Below are positions 1 through 5,565 of a DNA stretch of 64,000 bases, in pieces (position 1 is the stretch's first letter; every line of letters starts with the position of its first letter). The notes under the pieces were generated by a model. The model worked only from the letters and a program-made list of their open reading frames with translations, made no database searches and was not told the DNA's origin. The DNA lies in contig JAFKEE010000020.1 of the NCBI GenBank assembly GCA_017307505.1, positions 1 through 64,000 on the forward strand, read 5' to 3'. Origin of the DNA: Acidobacteriota bacterium (lineage in GTDB: Bacteria > Acidobacteriota > Terriglobia > Bryobacterales > Bryobacteraceae). The position numbers and the translations under genes were made by a program.

Positions 1-2223
1 ACCACCCAGTGGAAGGGTGCGAAGTTCGACCACAGCACGATGACAAAGTTCGCGCTGACCGGCAAACACGCACAGGCGCAGTGCTCCTCCTGCCACGTCA
101 ACAACCTCTTCAAAGGTACGCCGCAGACTTGCGACGGCTGCCACCTGCCGGACTACCAGAAGACGAGCAATCCTAATCACGCTTCAGCCGGTTTTTCGAC
201 GAGCTGTTCTGTTTGCCACACGACCACGCAGTGGAAAGGCGCCCAGTTCGACCATTCGAAAACAAAGTTTGCCCTGACTGGCGCGCACGTCGCCACCGCC
301 TGCCAGAGTTGTCATATCGGGAATAAGTTCGTGGGTACCCCGTCCACTTGTGAGGGCTGCCACACGCCGGACTTCCAGAAGACCACCAGCCCCAATCACA
401 CCGCCGCCGGCTTCCCGAAGGACTGCACAGTCTGCCACACAACCACCCAGTGGAAGGGTGCGAAGTTCGACCACAGCACGATGACAAAGTTCGCGCTGAC
501 CGGCAAACACGCACAGGCGCAGTGCTCCTCCTGCCACGTCAACAACCTCTTCAAAGGTACGCCGCAGACTTGCGACGGCTGTCACCTGCCGGACTACCAG
601 AAGACCACCAACCCCAACCACGCCTCGGCCGGGTTCTCTACCAGTTGTTCCACTTGCCATACCACCATCCAGTGGAAAGGCGCGGTCTTCGACCACTCCA
701 AAACGAAGTTCGCCCTGACTGGGGCTCACGTGGCCACCGCCTGCCAAAGCTGCCACATTGGCAATAAGTACGCCGGCACCGCTTCCACCTGCGAGGGGTG
801 CCACACGCCGGACTACCAGAAAACAACGAATCCTAATCACGTCACAGCCGGCTTCCCGAAAGACTGCACGGTCTGCCACACAACCACCCAGTGGAAAGGT
901 GCCGTTTTTGACCACTCCAAGACGAAGTTTGCGTTGACCGGCGCTCACGTCGCCACGCCCTGCCAGAGCTGCCATATCGGCAACAAGTACTCCGGCACGG
1001 TCTCGACCTGTGAGGGATGCCACACGCCGGACTACCAGAAGACCACCAATCCGAACCATGTCGCCGCGAGCTTCCCGAAAGACTGCGCCGTCTGTCACAC
1101 AACTACGCAGTGGAAGGGCGCCAAGTTCGATCACACCGCCATGACCAAGTTCCCCCTCACCGGGGCTCACGTCCAGACCCAGTGCTCACTCTGCCACGTG
1201 AACGGCCTCTATAAAGGGACACCTCAAACGTGCGAAGGCTGCCATCTGCCTGATTATCAGAAGACCACTACCCCCAACCATGCGACCGCCGGCTTCCCGA
1301 AAGACTGTACCGTCTGCCACAACACGACTCAGTGGAAGGGCGCCAAGTTCGACCACACTGCCATGACCAAGTTCCCCCTGACGGGAGCGCACGTCCAAAC
1401 GCCGTGCCTGAGCTGTCATGTCAACAATGTCTTCAAGGGAACTCCGCAGACGTGCCAGTCCTGCCACTTGGCACTCTACAAGTCCACTACCAACCCCAAC
1501 CACGCCGCCGCTGGCTTCCCCACTGACTGTACAGCCTGTCACAACACCACCCAATGGAAGGGCGCGGTCTTCAACCACAGTGCCACACGCTTTGCTCTCA
1601 CCGGCAAGCATGCCACCACCCAATGCAGCCTCTGCCATGTGAATGGTGTGTATGCGGGAACGCCCATGAACTGCGATGCCTGCCATCTGCCGCTTTACAA
1701 CTCCACCATCAATCCCAATCACGTCACGGCAGGCTTCCCGAAGGACTGCTCGGTCTGCCACTCCACAACCCAATGGAAAGGTGCGGTCTTCAATCATGCC
1801 CTGACCAAGTTCCCACTCACCGGCGCGCACACCACCGTTGTCTGTGCGAACTGCCATGTGGGCGGACGCTACACCGGCACCCCGACGGACTGCTACGCCT
1901 GCCACCAGAAAGTGTATGAGCAGGTCTCCAACCCCAACCACCTGACGGCAGGCTTCCCGCATACCTGCGCTTCCTGTCACACGACTACTCAATGGAAGGG
2001 CGCGAAGTTCAACCACAACTTCCCCATCTACACGGGTAAGCACGCAGGCAAGTGGACCACCTGCAACGATTGCCACACGACGCCCTCCAACTACGCCGTC
2101 TTCAGCTGTATTGACTGCCACGCCCACAACAAGACCGACATGGATAAGAAGCATAACGGCCGCAAGAACTATGTCTATGCGAGCCCAAGCTGCTATCAGT
2201 GCCACCCGAAAGGGAGCGAATAG
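1..2223 (+). CDS. Giant multiheme c-type cytochrome, 5' partial
   Basis: The reading frame is open from base 1, so the start codon and any signal peptide lie outside the window; the ATG at 40 is internal. The visible 740 residues are nine tandem units of about 73 residues, each with three CxxCH haem motifs, plus a divergent end unit with three more, giving 30 CxxCH. Each unit has conserved extra His (PNH, FDH/FNH, LTGxH) that could be distal ligands. CxxCH repeats of this density are typical of periplasmic or surface electron-transfer cytochromes. Unit types alternate (CSSCHVNN and CQSCHIGN), and bases 1-164 repeat at 442-605 with one synonymous change, indicating recent duplication. Followed 2 bp later by a beta-barrel gene in the same operon. 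Function as an electron conduit is inference. Confidence 0.93.
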   Translation, partial: TTQWKGAKFDHSTMTKFALTGKHAQAQCSSCHVNNLFKGTPQTCDGCHLPDYQKTSNPNHASAGFSTSCSVCHTTTQWKGAQFDHSKTKFALTGAHVATACQSCHIGNKFVGTPSTCEGCHTPDFQKTTSPNHTAAGFPKDCTVCHTTTQWKGAKFDHSTMTKFALTGKHAQAQCSSCHVNNLFKGTPQTCDGCHLPDYQKTTNPNHASAGFSTSCSTCHTTIQWKGAVFDHSKTKFALTGAHVATACQSCHIGNKYAGTASTCEGCHTPDYQKTTNPNHVTAGFPKDCTVCHTTTQWKGAVFDHSKTKFALTGAHVATPCQSCHIGNKYSGTVSTCEGCHTPDYQKTTNPNHVAASFPKDCAVCHTTTQWKGAKFDHTAMTKFPLTGAHVQTQCSLCHVNGLYKGTPQTCEGCHLPDYQKTTTPNHATAGFPKDCTVCHNTTQWKGAKFDHTAMTKFPLTGAHVQTPCLSCHVNNVFKGTPQTCQSCHLALYKSTTNPNHAAAGFPTDCTACHNTTQWKGAVFNHSATRFALTGKHATTQCSLCHVNGVYAGTPMNCDACHLPLYNSTINPNHVTAGFPKDCSVCHSTTQWKGAVFNHALTKFPLTGAHTTVVCANCHVGGRYTGTPTDCYACHQKVYEQVSNPNHLTAGFPHTCASCHTTTQWKGAKFNHNFPIYTGKHAGKWTTCNDCHTTPSNYAVFSCIDCHAHNKTDMDKKHNGRKNYVYASPSCYQCHPKGSE

Positions 2224-2225
2224 CC

Positions 2226-3878
2226 ATGTGGAGATGGATCACCACTGTCCTGGCGCCGGCCAGTCTTCTGCTGGCGCAGCCAGCGCCCACCCCGATACAC
2301 ATCCGCCAGGTGGTAGCCGGCGGTGTCTACCTCGACCAGGGAAGCGCTACCGGCCTGGCGGAAGGCATGAAGGTTACCTTCCAGCGCCTTGCTCCTGGCG
2401 AAGCCCGAATGTCAGCCAAAGCCGTCGGAGAAGGCACCGTCGTCTCGGTCGCGACCCAGTCTGCCTTTTGTGAGATCAAAGCCACCGTCGACAACCTGCA
2501 GCCGGAACCTGGTGACCTGGCCGTACTGGCCGCGGCCGACCAGGAGAACCTTGAGCGAATCCGCAACTCTGCCCGCCGCCAGCGCTATGCCCAGGTCGTG
2601 AGCTTCACCAGTGGGGATCCGCTGGAAGAGGAGGTCCGCGAGTACGTACCCAGCCCGCCGCTCAGCGAGGAAGGGCGCCTCACCGGCCGCCTCGGTTTCG
2701 AATGGAACTCGTTGAATGACCGCAGCGGAGCAGGTCTCTCCTCCCATCAGGAAGGCATGGCGATCCGGATCGACTGGACTCGCATCGAAGGTTCCTACTG
2801 GTCCATTTCCGGTTACTGGCGAGGCCGCGTGAATTCCACCAACGGCGGTCAGGCGCAGACCTTGACCGACCTCGTCAACCGGACCTATCACATCGGCCTG
2901 TTTTACTCGAACCCGCGCAGTCCCTATCAAATGGGCTTCGGGCGGATCCTTCTACCCTGGGCGTCCAGCCTGAGCACCCTCGATGGTGGTTACCTCGCGC
3001 GCTCCCTGGGAAAAACACTGACCGTCGGTGTCTTTGCCGGATCCACCCCGGATCCTTCTCAGTGGAACTACGATCCCAACCGGCAGATGCTGGGCACATT
3101 CCTGAACGCCCAACGCGGCAATTACGAATCCGCCCGCTGGAGCGGCACACTCGGTGTGGCAATCACACGAGTCCGCTGGCGCCCGGAACGCCAGTTCCTG
3201 TTCGCTGAGAACTCCATCTTTGTCGGTACGAAGTTCACGCTCCTCCACACCATGGAGGCCGATCAGCGCAACCCCAAACTCTTCAACGGCCAGACCGGGT
3301 TGCAGCTCACAAGAAGCTTCACCAGCGCTCGCTTCCAACCGCACCGCCGTGTCACTTTCGACCTCAGCCACAACCACCTTCGCGGCACCCCCACCTTCGA
3401 CGTTCGCCTGCTCGGCACAGGCCTCCTCGACAACTTCCTGTTCCAGGGCTTCAGCGGCGGCATCCGACTGCAGCCCATCGAGCGCCTGACGCTCAGCGGC
3501 AACTGGGGCCGGAGCCATCGCGAAAACGATCCGCGCTCCTCCCTCAATCAGATGTATAGCGCCGGCTGGAGCCGTTTGCCCTGGATCAGTTCCAGGCTGG
3601 AGGGTCGCTATAGCAGCTTCACCAGCAGCTTCGGCACTGGCCGCTACTCCTCCGTCACGCTCACCCGGAACGTTGGTGAACAGTTGCGCCTCGAAGCCCA
3701 GGCCGGACAGCAGGAGTTCCACGGCGCGCTCACCCAGCAGACCCGGGCGCGCTTTATCGGCGGCACCATCGACTGGTCTTTCTCCCGTCACTACTTCATT
3801 ACCGGAGGCTGGATGACCTACCGGGGCCAGGTTCAAAACTACGATCAGACATTTCTCACTTTGGGGTATCGCTTCTGA
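2226..3878 (+). CDS. Outer-membrane beta-barrel protein (porin-like)
   Basis: 550 residues. The ATG at 2226 is chosen because it follows GGGAG by 9 nt and opens a signal peptide (MWRWITTVLAPASLLLAQ). Residues about 20-105 form a small beta-rich domain that resembles the SH3-like domain of FlgT-type envelope proteins. From about residue 150 the sequence has alternating polar and aromatic residues with short turns, and it ends in GYRF, a C-terminal Phe as in BamA-assembled barrels. It starts 2 bp after the multiheme cytochrome and overlaps the next gene at TGATG (3876-3880). In porin-cytochrome complexes a barrel sheathes a multihaem wire; that role here is inferred from context. I do not recognise a named family. 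Confidence 0.8.
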   Translation: MWRWITTVLAPASLLLAQPAPTPIHIRQVVAGGVYLDQGSATGLAEGMKVTFQRLAPGEARMSAKAVGEGTVVSVATQSAFCEIKATVDNLQPEPGDLAVLAAADQENLERIRNSARRQRYAQVVSFTSGDPLEEEVREYVPSPPLSEEGRLTGRLGFEWNSLNDRSGAGLSSHQEGMAIRIDWTRIEGSYWSISGYWRGRVNSTNGGQAQTLTDLVNRTYHIGLFYSNPRSPYQMGFGRILLPWASSLSTLDGGYLARSLGKTLTVGVFAGSTPDPSQWNYDPNRQMLGTFLNAQRGNYESARWSGTLGVAITRVRWRPERQFLFAENSIFVGTKFTLLHTMEADQRNPKLFNGQTGLQLTRSFTSARFQPHRRVTFDLSHNHLRGTPTFDVRLLGTGLLDNFLFQGFSGGIRLQPIERLTLSGNWGRSHRENDPRSSLNQMYSAGWSRLPWISSRLEGRYSSFTSSFGTGRYSSVTLTRNVGEQLRLEAQAGQQEFHGALTQQTRARFIGGTIDWSFSRHYFITGGWMTYRGQVQNYDQTFLTLGYRF

Positions 3879-4660
3879 TGCTCGCCCTCACCTTCGGCTA
3901 TCTGCTTGCCTTTGCGGCGCAGTCTCCAAGTCAAACGACCCAGTCCGCTACGTTGCTGCAGCGCGCACAGAGCCGCGCCGAACAGTTCGCCACCGAGTTC
4001 CCCTCCATGGCCTGCACCGAACGGCTCGAGCAGCTGAAGCTCGGGGATGGCTCCAAAGTCCAGGAACGGCGCGACAGCGAGTTCGATTACCTCCTGCTGG
4101 TCGACGCGGCCGGAGGCGACTTCTCGGTGGAGGAATCCCGGCTGGAGAAGAAGCACCTAAAAGCGCCTGCCCAGCCGCTGCTTTCTACCACGGGCTTTGC
4201 CGTTCTGCTCATGATCTTCCTCCCGCGCTTCGCGGATAGCTACCACTTTGAACAACTGGAGCCGCAGGTTCTTGACGGTGTGAAGTGGGCGCGGCTCAGC
4301 TTCGAACATCTCGGCACGAAGGACTCACCATCTGTCCTCGAAGTCTCGGGCCGTCAGTACCCCATCCCCTGGAAGGGCATCGCCTGGCTCGATGAGTCCA
4401 CCGGCCAGGTCCGTCAGATCGAAGTGGACCTGCGCGAACCGCTGGAAGACATCGGCCTGGTCGGCCTGCACAGCCTGGTTCGATACGGAGCCACAGGTGC
4501 AGCTTCACCAGTCTGGCTGCCCCTTTCGGCGGTGATCGACGCTCGCACGCGCCATCAGCATTGGCGCAACACACACACATTTATGGGCTACCGCCGGTTC
4601 TCCGTTGAGACGGAATCGAAGGTCACCCAGGTCAAAGGAGATACCACAGGGAAACAATGA
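3878..4660 (+). CDS. Exported protein of unknown function
   Basis: 260 residues with an N-terminal hydrophobic segment (MLALTFGYLLAFAAQ) that looks like a signal peptide. The body is predicted mixed alpha/beta, with a short hydrophobic stretch near residues 105-115 and a basic, His-containing segment (RTRHQHWRNTHTFMGY) near the C-terminus. No haem motif. The layout vaguely recalls outer-membrane lipoprotein-sorting-like folds, but I cannot assign a family. Translation is coupled on both sides: the ATG overlaps the barrel stop (TGATG), and its own stop overlaps the next start (ATGA at 4657). The tight coupling suggests it serves the same cytochrome/barrel assembly. Confidence 0.75.
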   Translation: MLALTFGYLLAFAAQSPSQTTQSATLLQRAQSRAEQFATEFPSMACTERLEQLKLGDGSKVQERRDSEFDYLLLVDAAGGDFSVEESRLEKKHLKAPAQPLLSTTGFAVLLMIFLPRFADSYHFEQLEPQVLDGVKWARLSFEHLGTKDSPSVLEVSGRQYPIPWKGIAWLDESTGQVRQIEVDLREPLEDIGLVGLHSLVRYGATGAASPVWLPLSAVIDARTRHQHWRNTHTFMGYRRFSVETESKVTQVKGDTTGKQ

Positions 4661-5565
4661 GTACGGCTCAATCTGAACTGCCGCATCGCCTGCGCGCAAG
4701 CCTGCTGATGTTCGGAGCGATGGCGCTGATCCTCTGGCTCACGGTGATTGGTTTTGACTACTACCGCCTGCCGCTGGCGGAACGTCCTGTCCATCCTCGA
4801 CATTGGCAGCTGAGGCCGTCAGGACAGATCGGCTTGCGTGTGGGCATGCTTTCACTCGCCATCTTCTTATGCCTGTTTCTTTATCCGCTCAGAAAACGCT
4901 GGAAGCCCCTGCAACGCATCGGGAAGACCCGGCACTGGCTCGACATCCACATCATCCTGGGCCTGGCCGTGCCGGTGCTGGTCACATTCCACTCTTCCCT
5001 CAAACTGCAGGGGCTCGCAGGCATGGCCTACTGGATCATGATGGCCATCGTCGCCAGTGGCATCGCCGGACGCTACCTCTACGCCCAGATACCGCGTAGC
5101 GTGACCATGGCCGAAGTCAGCCTCCGCGAACTGCAGGACACCAGCGAGACTCTGAATCGCGAGATTTGCAGCCAGAGCCTCTTCGACCAGTCGGACCTGC
5201 GGGAAGCCTTGCGATTGCCCACCCCGGAACAGGTGGACAGCATGCCGCTCCTGAGTGTGCTTGCCTGGATGACCTGGCTGGACCTGCTGCGGCCGTTTCG
5301 CATGGCACGCCTGCGTCGCCGGGTCCTGAGCGGAGGTGAGTTGGTTCTTTCCTTCGGCGGCCTCCGGCGCTCCGGCCACCCCGAATTGGAGGCCGTACTC
5401 GCCACTGTGCGCAGCCAGGGCTGGCTGACGGCCAAGATCCTTTTCCTCAGACGCGCCGGCGAGATCTTCCACCTCTGGCACGTGATTCACAAGCCGTTCA
5501 GCTATTCTTTCGCCGTTCTGGTCTTTCTCCACATCGGGCTCGCCGTACTGATGGGCTATTTCTGA
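4657..5565 (+). CDS. Integral membrane protein, probable di-haem b cytochrome
   Basis: 302 residues. Hydrophobic helices lie at about 12-33, 56-76, 96-116, 122-143 and 280-300. Two helices each carry a His pair 14 residues apart: H98/H112 and H278/H292. That is the spacing used by bis-His b-haems stacked across a membrane in cytochrome b and ferric-reductase-like proteins. H93, H272 and H275 add further candidates. A soluble loop of about 125 residues separates the helix groups. The start overlaps the upstream stop by ATGA. As last gene of the cytochrome/barrel operon it could pass quinol electrons to the periplasm; this is inferred from the His pattern and context. It could also be a generic PepSY/ferric-reductase-type protein. 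Confidence 0.7.
   Translation: MSTAQSELPHRLRASLLMFGAMALILWLTVIGFDYYRLPLAERPVHPRHWQLRPSGQIGLRVGMLSLAIFLCLFLYPLRKRWKPLQRIGKTRHWLDIHIILGLAVPVLVTFHSSLKLQGLAGMAYWIMMAIVASGIAGRYLYAQIPRSVTMAEVSLRELQDTSETLNREICSQSLFDQSDLREALRLPTPEQVDSMPLLSVLAWMTWLDLLRPFRMARLRRRVLSGGELVLSFGGLRRSGHPELEAVLATVRSQGWLTAKILFLRRAGEIFHLWHVIHKPFSYSFAVLVFLHIGLAVLMGYF

Follow-up and report, generated by a model that had tools for sequence, protein, structure and literature searches.

The window analysed here is a stretch of 64,000 nucleotides (nt) from an Acidobacteriota bacterium of the family Bryobacteraceae (GenBank assembly GCA_017307505.1, contig JAFKEE010000020.1). It opens with four genes encoding the 3′ part of a giant multihaem cytochrome c (CYT2), an outer-membrane beta-barrel protein (BAR), an exported protein (EXP), and an inner-membrane protein (MEM) that is a candidate for binding two b haems. 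In relatives a second cytochrome (CYT1) is encoded upstream and a flavoprotein (FLV) mostly downstream, the usual gene order being CYT1-CYT2-BAR-EXP-MEM, mostly then FLV. The locus is probably an acidobacterial porin-cytochrome conduit of the PCC3 type, with FLV as the likely cytoplasmic partner. An earlier note on this DNA had proposed a possible new conduit that matched no family it could name. A conduit is still the best reading of the giant cytochromes, the barrel, the putative di-haem b protein with its invariant histidine pairs, and the conserved cluster; the novelty is not supported, because the gene content and the inner-membrane signature are those of PCC3 (PMC5566968). The acidobacterial cluster thus fits a kind that has already been named.

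The PCC3 signature

In PCC3 a porin is combined with two multihaem cytochromes (MHCs), one extracellular (median of 34 haems, at most 85) and one periplasmic (median of 21), and with an inner-membrane protein (IMP) of ~300 amino acids (aa) with five helices, an SGxxG motif and two WX3HX13H motifs, which was proposed to be quinone-active (PMC5566968). PCC3 MHCs are described with 22-39 residues per haem, internal repeats and a variable haem number. The acidobacterial cluster also joins a porin to two large MHCs and a conserved IMP, in the same cytochrome-cytochrome-porin order; in the PCC3 of Sideroxydans ES-1 (Slit_1446-1449) the order by locus tag is periplasmic MHC, extracellular MHC, porin (PMC12016527). 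MEM has ~300 aa, five helices (the transmembrane assignment is our own), SGxxG and both WX3HX13H motifs, and the cytochromes share with those of PCC3 high haem numbers (here 23 in CYT1 and 19-79 in CYT2), few residues per haem, and internal repeats (of three haems here). The PCC3 MHCs of Gallionellaceae carry 21-27 and 10-35 haems and are modelled as long, mostly linear molecules (PMC10734462), and in Burkholderiales a pair with 24 and 49 haems, of variable haem number, stands ahead of an OmbB-like porin (PMC7399161).

The motifs of MEM are close to invariant: SGxxG is present in 69/69 sequences, both WX3HX13H motifs in 68, and histidines H10, H98, H112, H275, H278 and H292 in all 69 (H49 in 65). 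The 14-residue spacing of H98/H112 and of H278/H292, noticed earlier, is thus more than chance. An AlphaFold2 model on 69 sequences (mean pLDDT 90) places helices at residues 4-36, 57-73, 91-112 and 119-144, with a long one at 242-298. Because the third and last helices run parallel in a five-helix topology, H98 would face H278 and H112 would face H292, and MEM may bind a b haem at each of these proposed pairs. The transmembrane domain of ferric reductases and NOX enzymes (PF01794) reaches 14.5 bits against a cut-off of 28, and MEM resembles it by ligand motif only.

The two cytochromes differ in how constant their length is. Among the 80 named loci introduced below, 46 of the 48 CYT1 frames counted as complete have 23 CxxCH motifs; the exceptions have 19 (L087, where a neighbouring piece adds 2) and 11 (L112, where a neighbouring piece adds 12 to make 23), and 23 is also the number in L169, L170, L173, L186 and L188 from other classes. 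CYT2 has 19-79 haems in the 49 frames counted (leaving aside one value among them, 12, which belongs to the split frame of L112), and its haem count is 1 modulo 3 in 40 of them. A CYT2 with 79 haems has 1988 aa, and a CYT1 with 23 has 630. CYT2 differs even between close kin, with 37 haems in L087 and 19 in L091 at a MEM tree distance of 0.04, and 54 in L069 and 43 in L076 at a distance of 0.09. Its length nonetheless carries some phylogenetic signal: over 46 loci nearest relatives differ by 8.3 as against 11.7 when shuffled, and 1 of 500 shuffles was as low. Single CYT2 counts are uncertain, because draft assemblies may collapse repeats and so drop whole modules.

The motifs of CYT2 are spaced 32/33-16-25 residues apart in the joined reading described below, and almost identically in L108. 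In the joined reading 61 haems come with 65 histidines outside CxxCH, and in L108 79 haems come with 82; at about one per haem, bis-His ligation throughout CYT2 is plausible. Like GSU1996 and GSU2210 of Geobacter, CYT2 appears to be a monomeric chain of c7-like modules, with three haems each in GSU1996. Those proteins, however, have 12 or 27 haems against 19-79, and GSU1996 has one His-Met haem per domain. GSU1996 is reportedly 12 nm long with 12 haems, or ~3 nm per module; at that rate we estimate that 31 haems would about span the periplasm and that 61-79 would exceed it. The profile for three-haem nanowire cytochromes (TIGR04257) gave CYT2 21.3 bits against a cut-off of 40, the HmcA model also stayed under its cut-off, and a PDB sequence search with the CYT2 of G005 returned nothing at 1e-3. 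The CYT2 piece in the window is above the Pfam cut-offs for Cytochrom_CIII, Cytochrom_c3_2 and PF22113 (domains II/IV of MtrC/MtrF; 61.2 bits, cut-off 30). The last is likely a cross-match of dense CxxCH repeats, because it overlaps better Cytochrome_C7 matches and is made by CYT1 as well (36.0 bits).

MtrCAB, MtoAB and PioAB share with the cluster the idea of a barrel joined to a multihaem cytochrome, but the earlier statement that MtrCAB does not match holds: neither Pfam nor NCBIfam links BAR to the MtrB/PioB family, PF11854 was not found in the genome, and the decahaem MtrA/DmsE model (TIGR03508) reaches 9.6 bits against a cut-off of 192.2. A porin-MHC cluster of Verrucomicrobia differs in having 8-haem cytochromes (PMC5615132). 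Searches of the open-licence PMC literature gave no paper that joins PCC3 and Acidobacteriota, and no title on such an operon among those listed.

The locus and its conservation

The coordinates of the locus are given in Table 1. The four frames are as the earlier note described them, a coupled operon with a cytochrome of at least 30 CxxCH, a barrel whose C-terminus reads GYRF, and overlaps of 1 to 4 nt at the last two junctions; they are real, and conserved in relatives. The ATG of BAR lies 3 nt past the cytochrome stop (an alternative GTG at 2199 would overlap it), the start of EXP overlaps the BAR stop, and EXP and MEM are joined by an ATGA overlap.

Table 1. Features of the probable PCC3-type locus in the window
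Feature	Position	Strand	Evidence
CYT2 3′ part, triheme-repeat multihaem cytochrome c	1..2223	+	Cytochrome_C7 4.9e-33, 30 CxxCH
Tandem duplication inside CYT2, 441-nt unit (~two three-haem modules), 86% matches	1..902	+	
BAR, outer-membrane beta-barrel protein, 550 aa, predicted 22 strands	2226..3878	+	
BAR N-terminal small beta domain, residues 24-101, ahead of the barrel strands	2295..2528	+	
EXP, exported protein, 260 aa	3878..4660	+	no Pfam or solved-structure relative found
MEM, putative di-haem b-type inner-membrane protein, 302 aa	4657..5565	+	PCC3 IMP signature
MEM H98, proposed haem ligand, helix 91-112	4948..4950	+	69/69
MEM H112, proposed haem ligand, helix 91-112	4990..4992	+	69/69
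MEM H278, proposed haem ligand, last helix	5488..5490	+	69/69
MEM H292, proposed haem ligand, last helix	5530..5532	+	69/69

The cytochrome frame (740 aa; motifs counted by script) is open at the 5′ edge of the window, and CYT2 is truncated because the window begins at base 1 of its contig (C57) in a genome of 9.39 Mb. The end of another contig, C37, carries a separate 23-haem cytochrome gene (CYT1) followed by the 5′ part of CYT2, with 32 CxxCH up to the contig edge (locus L037). The two contigs share an exact overlap of 129 nt; the initial 127 nt of the window are repeated exactly at 442. Since the overlap sits in this repeat, the joined CYT2 of 61 haems is one possible reading and not a measurement. 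The 441-nt tandem duplication is probably what broke the assembly.

Comparison of gene order across related acidobacterial genomes, which the earlier note had called for, shows the cluster to be conserved. A first set of 19 stretches was the source of the locus profiles; L037 comes from the window's own genome, the 18 stretches L038-L055 from relatives. The set repeats the order CYT1-CYT2-BAR-EXP-MEM wherever the contig permits, with the exception of L052 (CYT1-MEM only); L051 starts within MEM, and frames are broken in L038 and L046. From a pattern scan of named genomes the best 80 of 223 candidates were kept, all titled Acidobacteriota or its subgroups, and L109 among them is Occallatibacter savannae AB23. 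Of the named loci, 50 have 6.8 kb or more ahead of MEM, and in 45 of these the full five-gene set stands in order on a single strand. The uncorrected count was 46, and L112 was taken out as a split CYT1 with a barrel remnant; L086 was scored as lacking EXP through a start filter, though a 260-bit EXP match exists, and the other incomplete loci are L123, L071 and L118. In a shorter form (L060, L110, L123, L128 and L134) a 23-haem cytochrome directly precedes MEM, which is followed by FLV, with no BAR, EXP or CYT2 between. A pattern scan of viral contigs gave no relative. The congener genome G006, assembled in two contigs, has its CYT2 region split into several overlapping frames (L038 10164-15215), either by real decay or by indel errors in the repeats.

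Across the phylum, MEM is present in 56 of 396 sampled genomes at E 1e-10, and 41 of these have a strong match (below 1e-45). A strong BAR (100 bits or more) occurs in 14 genomes, two of which, G220 and G355, have no MEM. BAR also matched at ~76-112 bits in loci from other classes (L169, L172, L173, L187 and L188). The strong-match cut-offs were picked after the match lists had been viewed.

With regard to the remaining proteins, BAR, EXP and MEM have no Pfam match above cut-off. BAR is predicted to form a barrel of 22 strands; MtrB is not among its 50 listed structural matches, which is uninformative either way. The N-terminal part of its profile gives ~25-30 bits in many acidobacterial genomes, mostly without the barrel part. 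A PDB profile search with EXP found nothing up to E 10. EXP is conserved in the Acidobacteriota loci and is probably an accessory periplasmic factor.

The flavoprotein and the proposed route of the electrons

At its N-terminus FLV carries a hydrophobic stretch; it also has two 4Fe-4S motifs and a Pyr_redox_3 (FAD/NAD) domain that is close to those of bacillithiol-disulfide reductases and thioredoxin reductases. Where at least 1.8 kb lies downstream of MEM (72 loci), 62 have an FLV start no more than 700 nt from MEM on its strand, and 69 have FLV somewhere in the locus, including a 594-bit match in L110 that was first counted out (giving 68). It is missing from L090, L097 and L100; the L090 and L097 metagenome-assembled genomes, each with a full cluster, hold a second locus of CYT1-MEM-FLV (L123 and L134, same isolates). 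In the 396-genome sample a strong FLV (up to E 2.4e-101, four candidates scored per genome) was seen in 30 genomes, each of them one of the 41 that have strong MEM, and in 0 of the 355 others (Fisher 3e-36, relatedness ignored). Weaker matches were left out of that count, in 25 genomes for FLV and in 15 for MEM; one of the 25, G127, is strong for MEM. The second cluster motif of FLV reads C-x2-H-x2-C-x3-CP in 72/73 proteins, with His at the expected second Cys, and no CxxC follows residue 190 in 72/73; examples are L166 6728-8179 (from C46 of the window's own genome) and L041 13291-14658. To judge from the motif, a His-ligated cluster is possible.

Homologues of MEM are also found beside other flavoproteins. 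Shorter relatives lie on plasmids of Alteromonas, Salinimonas, Methylophaga and Legionella, between an oxidoreductase gene (annotated 2Fe-2S or FAD-binding in these Gammaproteobacteria) and a cytochrome gene. In the two that were counted, Alteromonas and Legionella, the cytochrome has 7 haems and matches the CYT1 profile. These small trios share a MEM homologue with the acidobacterial cluster and, in those two, a CYT1-profile cytochrome, but no giant cytochrome is annotated adjacent to them, and the Alteromonas flavoprotein, the one run against Pfam, differs from FLV in having the domains NAD_binding_1, FAD_binding_6 and Fer2. A third architecture accompanies paralogues in other Acidobacteriota (L182 5547-10984, L183 and L184), where a flavoprotein of 790 aa with Pyr_redox_3, cNMP and 4Fe-4S domains and a di-haem b protein are followed by a frame with 10 CxxCH; by eye, this frame begins like an FHA domain. 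That one di-haem b family accompanies three flavoprotein architectures of the NAD(P)H type is the main reason why a pyridine-nucleotide or ferredoxin link is preferred over quinol. Quinol oxidation, which the earlier note had assigned to MEM, is doubtful; a link through the NAD-binding and Fe-S flavoproteins that adjoin its relatives is at least as likely.

The conduit is proposed to work as follows. MEM with its two b haems would exchange electrons with the cytoplasmic side on the one hand and with CYT1 on the other; CYT1 would serve as a periplasmic wire of 23 haems and connect to CYT2, a chain of three-haem modules that would reach or cross the outer membrane either inside the 22-strand barrel or next to it. 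The most likely cytoplasmic partner would be the membrane-anchored FLV, which would give the conduit NAD(P)H (or ferredoxin) at one end and an extracellular partner at the other, the direction of flow and the substrate being read provisionally. Tentatively, and with somewhat less than an even chance, the whole may be a pyridine-nucleotide-linked wire running from NAD(P)H or ferredoxin through FLV, MEM and the fixed CYT1 to a variable CYT2 that passes through the barrel, with the flavoprotein-MEM-cytochrome trio as a general quinone-free route between NAD(P) and the periplasm. CYT2 would then lengthen or shorten as three-haem modules are gained or lost, and the longest would leave the cell as a single-chain wire.

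A number of observations weigh against a PCC3-type conduit with FLV as its partner. The assignment was made from composition, motifs and published descriptions of proteobacterial PCC3, and the excerpts seen give that set four genes, with neither a flavoprotein nor EXP. CYT1 has 20 haems in L172, and single frames of 40-53 stand in L171, L174, L177 and L185. The barrel model has a pTM of 0.62, with MOMP and pilus ushers as best Foldseek matches and TonB-dependent receptors as best VIA-align matches; because these are general large barrels, BAR is established as a "large barrel" only. A strong BAR is found in just 12 of the 41 MEM-positive genomes, with weak or no matches in other classes, so that more distant genomes have a diverged barrel, one that was missed, or none. 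The MEM model has no reliable fold neighbour by Foldseek or VIA-align, and counts of Lys plus Arg favour the proposed topology (cytoplasmic N-terminus) weakly. In the window MEM has no FLV as its neighbour, and in 11 of the 41 MEM-positive genomes no strong FLV was found among the four candidates scored. Further differences from PCC3 are a CYT1 with nearly always 23 haems, a MEM gene in last position, 22 barrel strands against porin predictions of up to 42, and hosts that are Acidobacteriota and a Bacteroidota plasmid, whereas PCC3 was described from Proteobacteria in the excerpts seen. In L177 (4710-8246) and L185 (1-3045) the cytochrome adjacent to MEM is a single frame with 40-44 CxxCH, and the genomes of L177 (G359) and L185 (G127) gave no strong FLV; a variant free of FLV may exist.

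The Bacteroidota host is Emticicia oligotrophica DSM 17448, whose plasmid pEMTOL02 carries ccsA-MEM-FLV-CYT1-CYT2-barrel (L178), with MEM at 198 bits, FLV at 471 and CYT1 at 539 (23 haems), a CYT2 of 40 haems, and no EXP. Its 538-aa barrel is missed by the BAR profile (hmmsearch, E 10), a further point on the negative side; by hhalign it aligns with BAR over 489 columns (97.3%, 2.6e-11, 17% identity), a single pairwise test among proteins that resemble one another as barrels do.

A PCC3 conduit tied to the quinone pool, in which MEM would exchange electrons with quinol and FLV would be a separate or regulatory partner, is considered rather unlikely. Di-haem b proteins often react with quinones, and both the window without FLV beside MEM and the 11 genomes without a strong FLV suit this explanation, as does the model published for the PCC3 IMP (PMC5566968). 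It sits poorly, however, with the three flavoprotein architectures bearing NAD-binding domains and Fe-S motifs, with the finding that a strong FLV was not seen without strong MEM (0 of 355 genomes), and with the FLV genes kept elsewhere in G000, G005 and G006, whose own clusters lack one (the copy in the window's genome lies at C46:30778-31956).

The direction of flow might also be inward. FLV would then make NAD(P)H or reduced ferredoxin with electrons taken up outside the cell, for instance from Fe(II) or reduced humics. That PCC3 was proposed from Fe(II) oxidisers (PMC5566968) speaks for such uptake. So does the Alteromonas trio, which adjoins [NiFe] hydrogenase genes, a plausible periplasmic donor. 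Uptake is nevertheless improbable on present evidence: no iron-oxidation context was seen at the locus (none was looked for), sequence does not show direction, and PMC12442390 terms PCC3 functionally unverified. On the Alteromonas plasmid (L179 5177-16507) the FAD/2Fe-2S protein, the MEM-like protein and the 7-haem cytochrome are encoded just upstream of the hydrogenase genes, and this trio may be the electron partner of the hydrogenase.

A locus without any wire across the outer membrane, in which CYT1 and CYT2 would store or move periplasmic electrons and BAR would be an ordinary channel or assembly factor, is quite unlikely: the five short loci with nothing between CYT1 and MEM, the scarcity of strong barrels among MEM-positive genomes, the general character of BAR's structural matches, and the periplasmic location described for triheme-repeat cytochromes such as GSU1996 are consistent with it, but 45 of 50 loci have CYT2 and BAR side by side, the five short ones lack both, an extended CYT2 of tens of modules would by our estimate outgrow the periplasm, and PCC3 MHCs are predicted to be extracellular (PMC5566968, PMC10734462).

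Implications

What looks new in these genomes is the spread of PCC3 outside Proteobacteria, the pairing of a fixed with a telescoping cytochrome, the extra exported subunit EXP, and the tie to a flavoprotein. An FLV partner would give PCC3 a testable point of electron entry and challenges the quinone model. If true, the trio of flavoprotein, di-haem b protein and c3-type cytochrome would be a so far unrecognised quinone-free route joining the periplasm to the NAD(P) pool of the cytoplasm. The fixed CYT1 beside a telescoping CYT2 offers a direct test of how cytochrome length affects electron transfer, and the system is open to testing in Occallatibacter savannae AB23 and in Emticicia oligotrophica DSM 17448, both of them named strains. 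If PCC3 is common in soil Acidobacteriota, extracellular electron exchange in soils may exceed what annotation shows.

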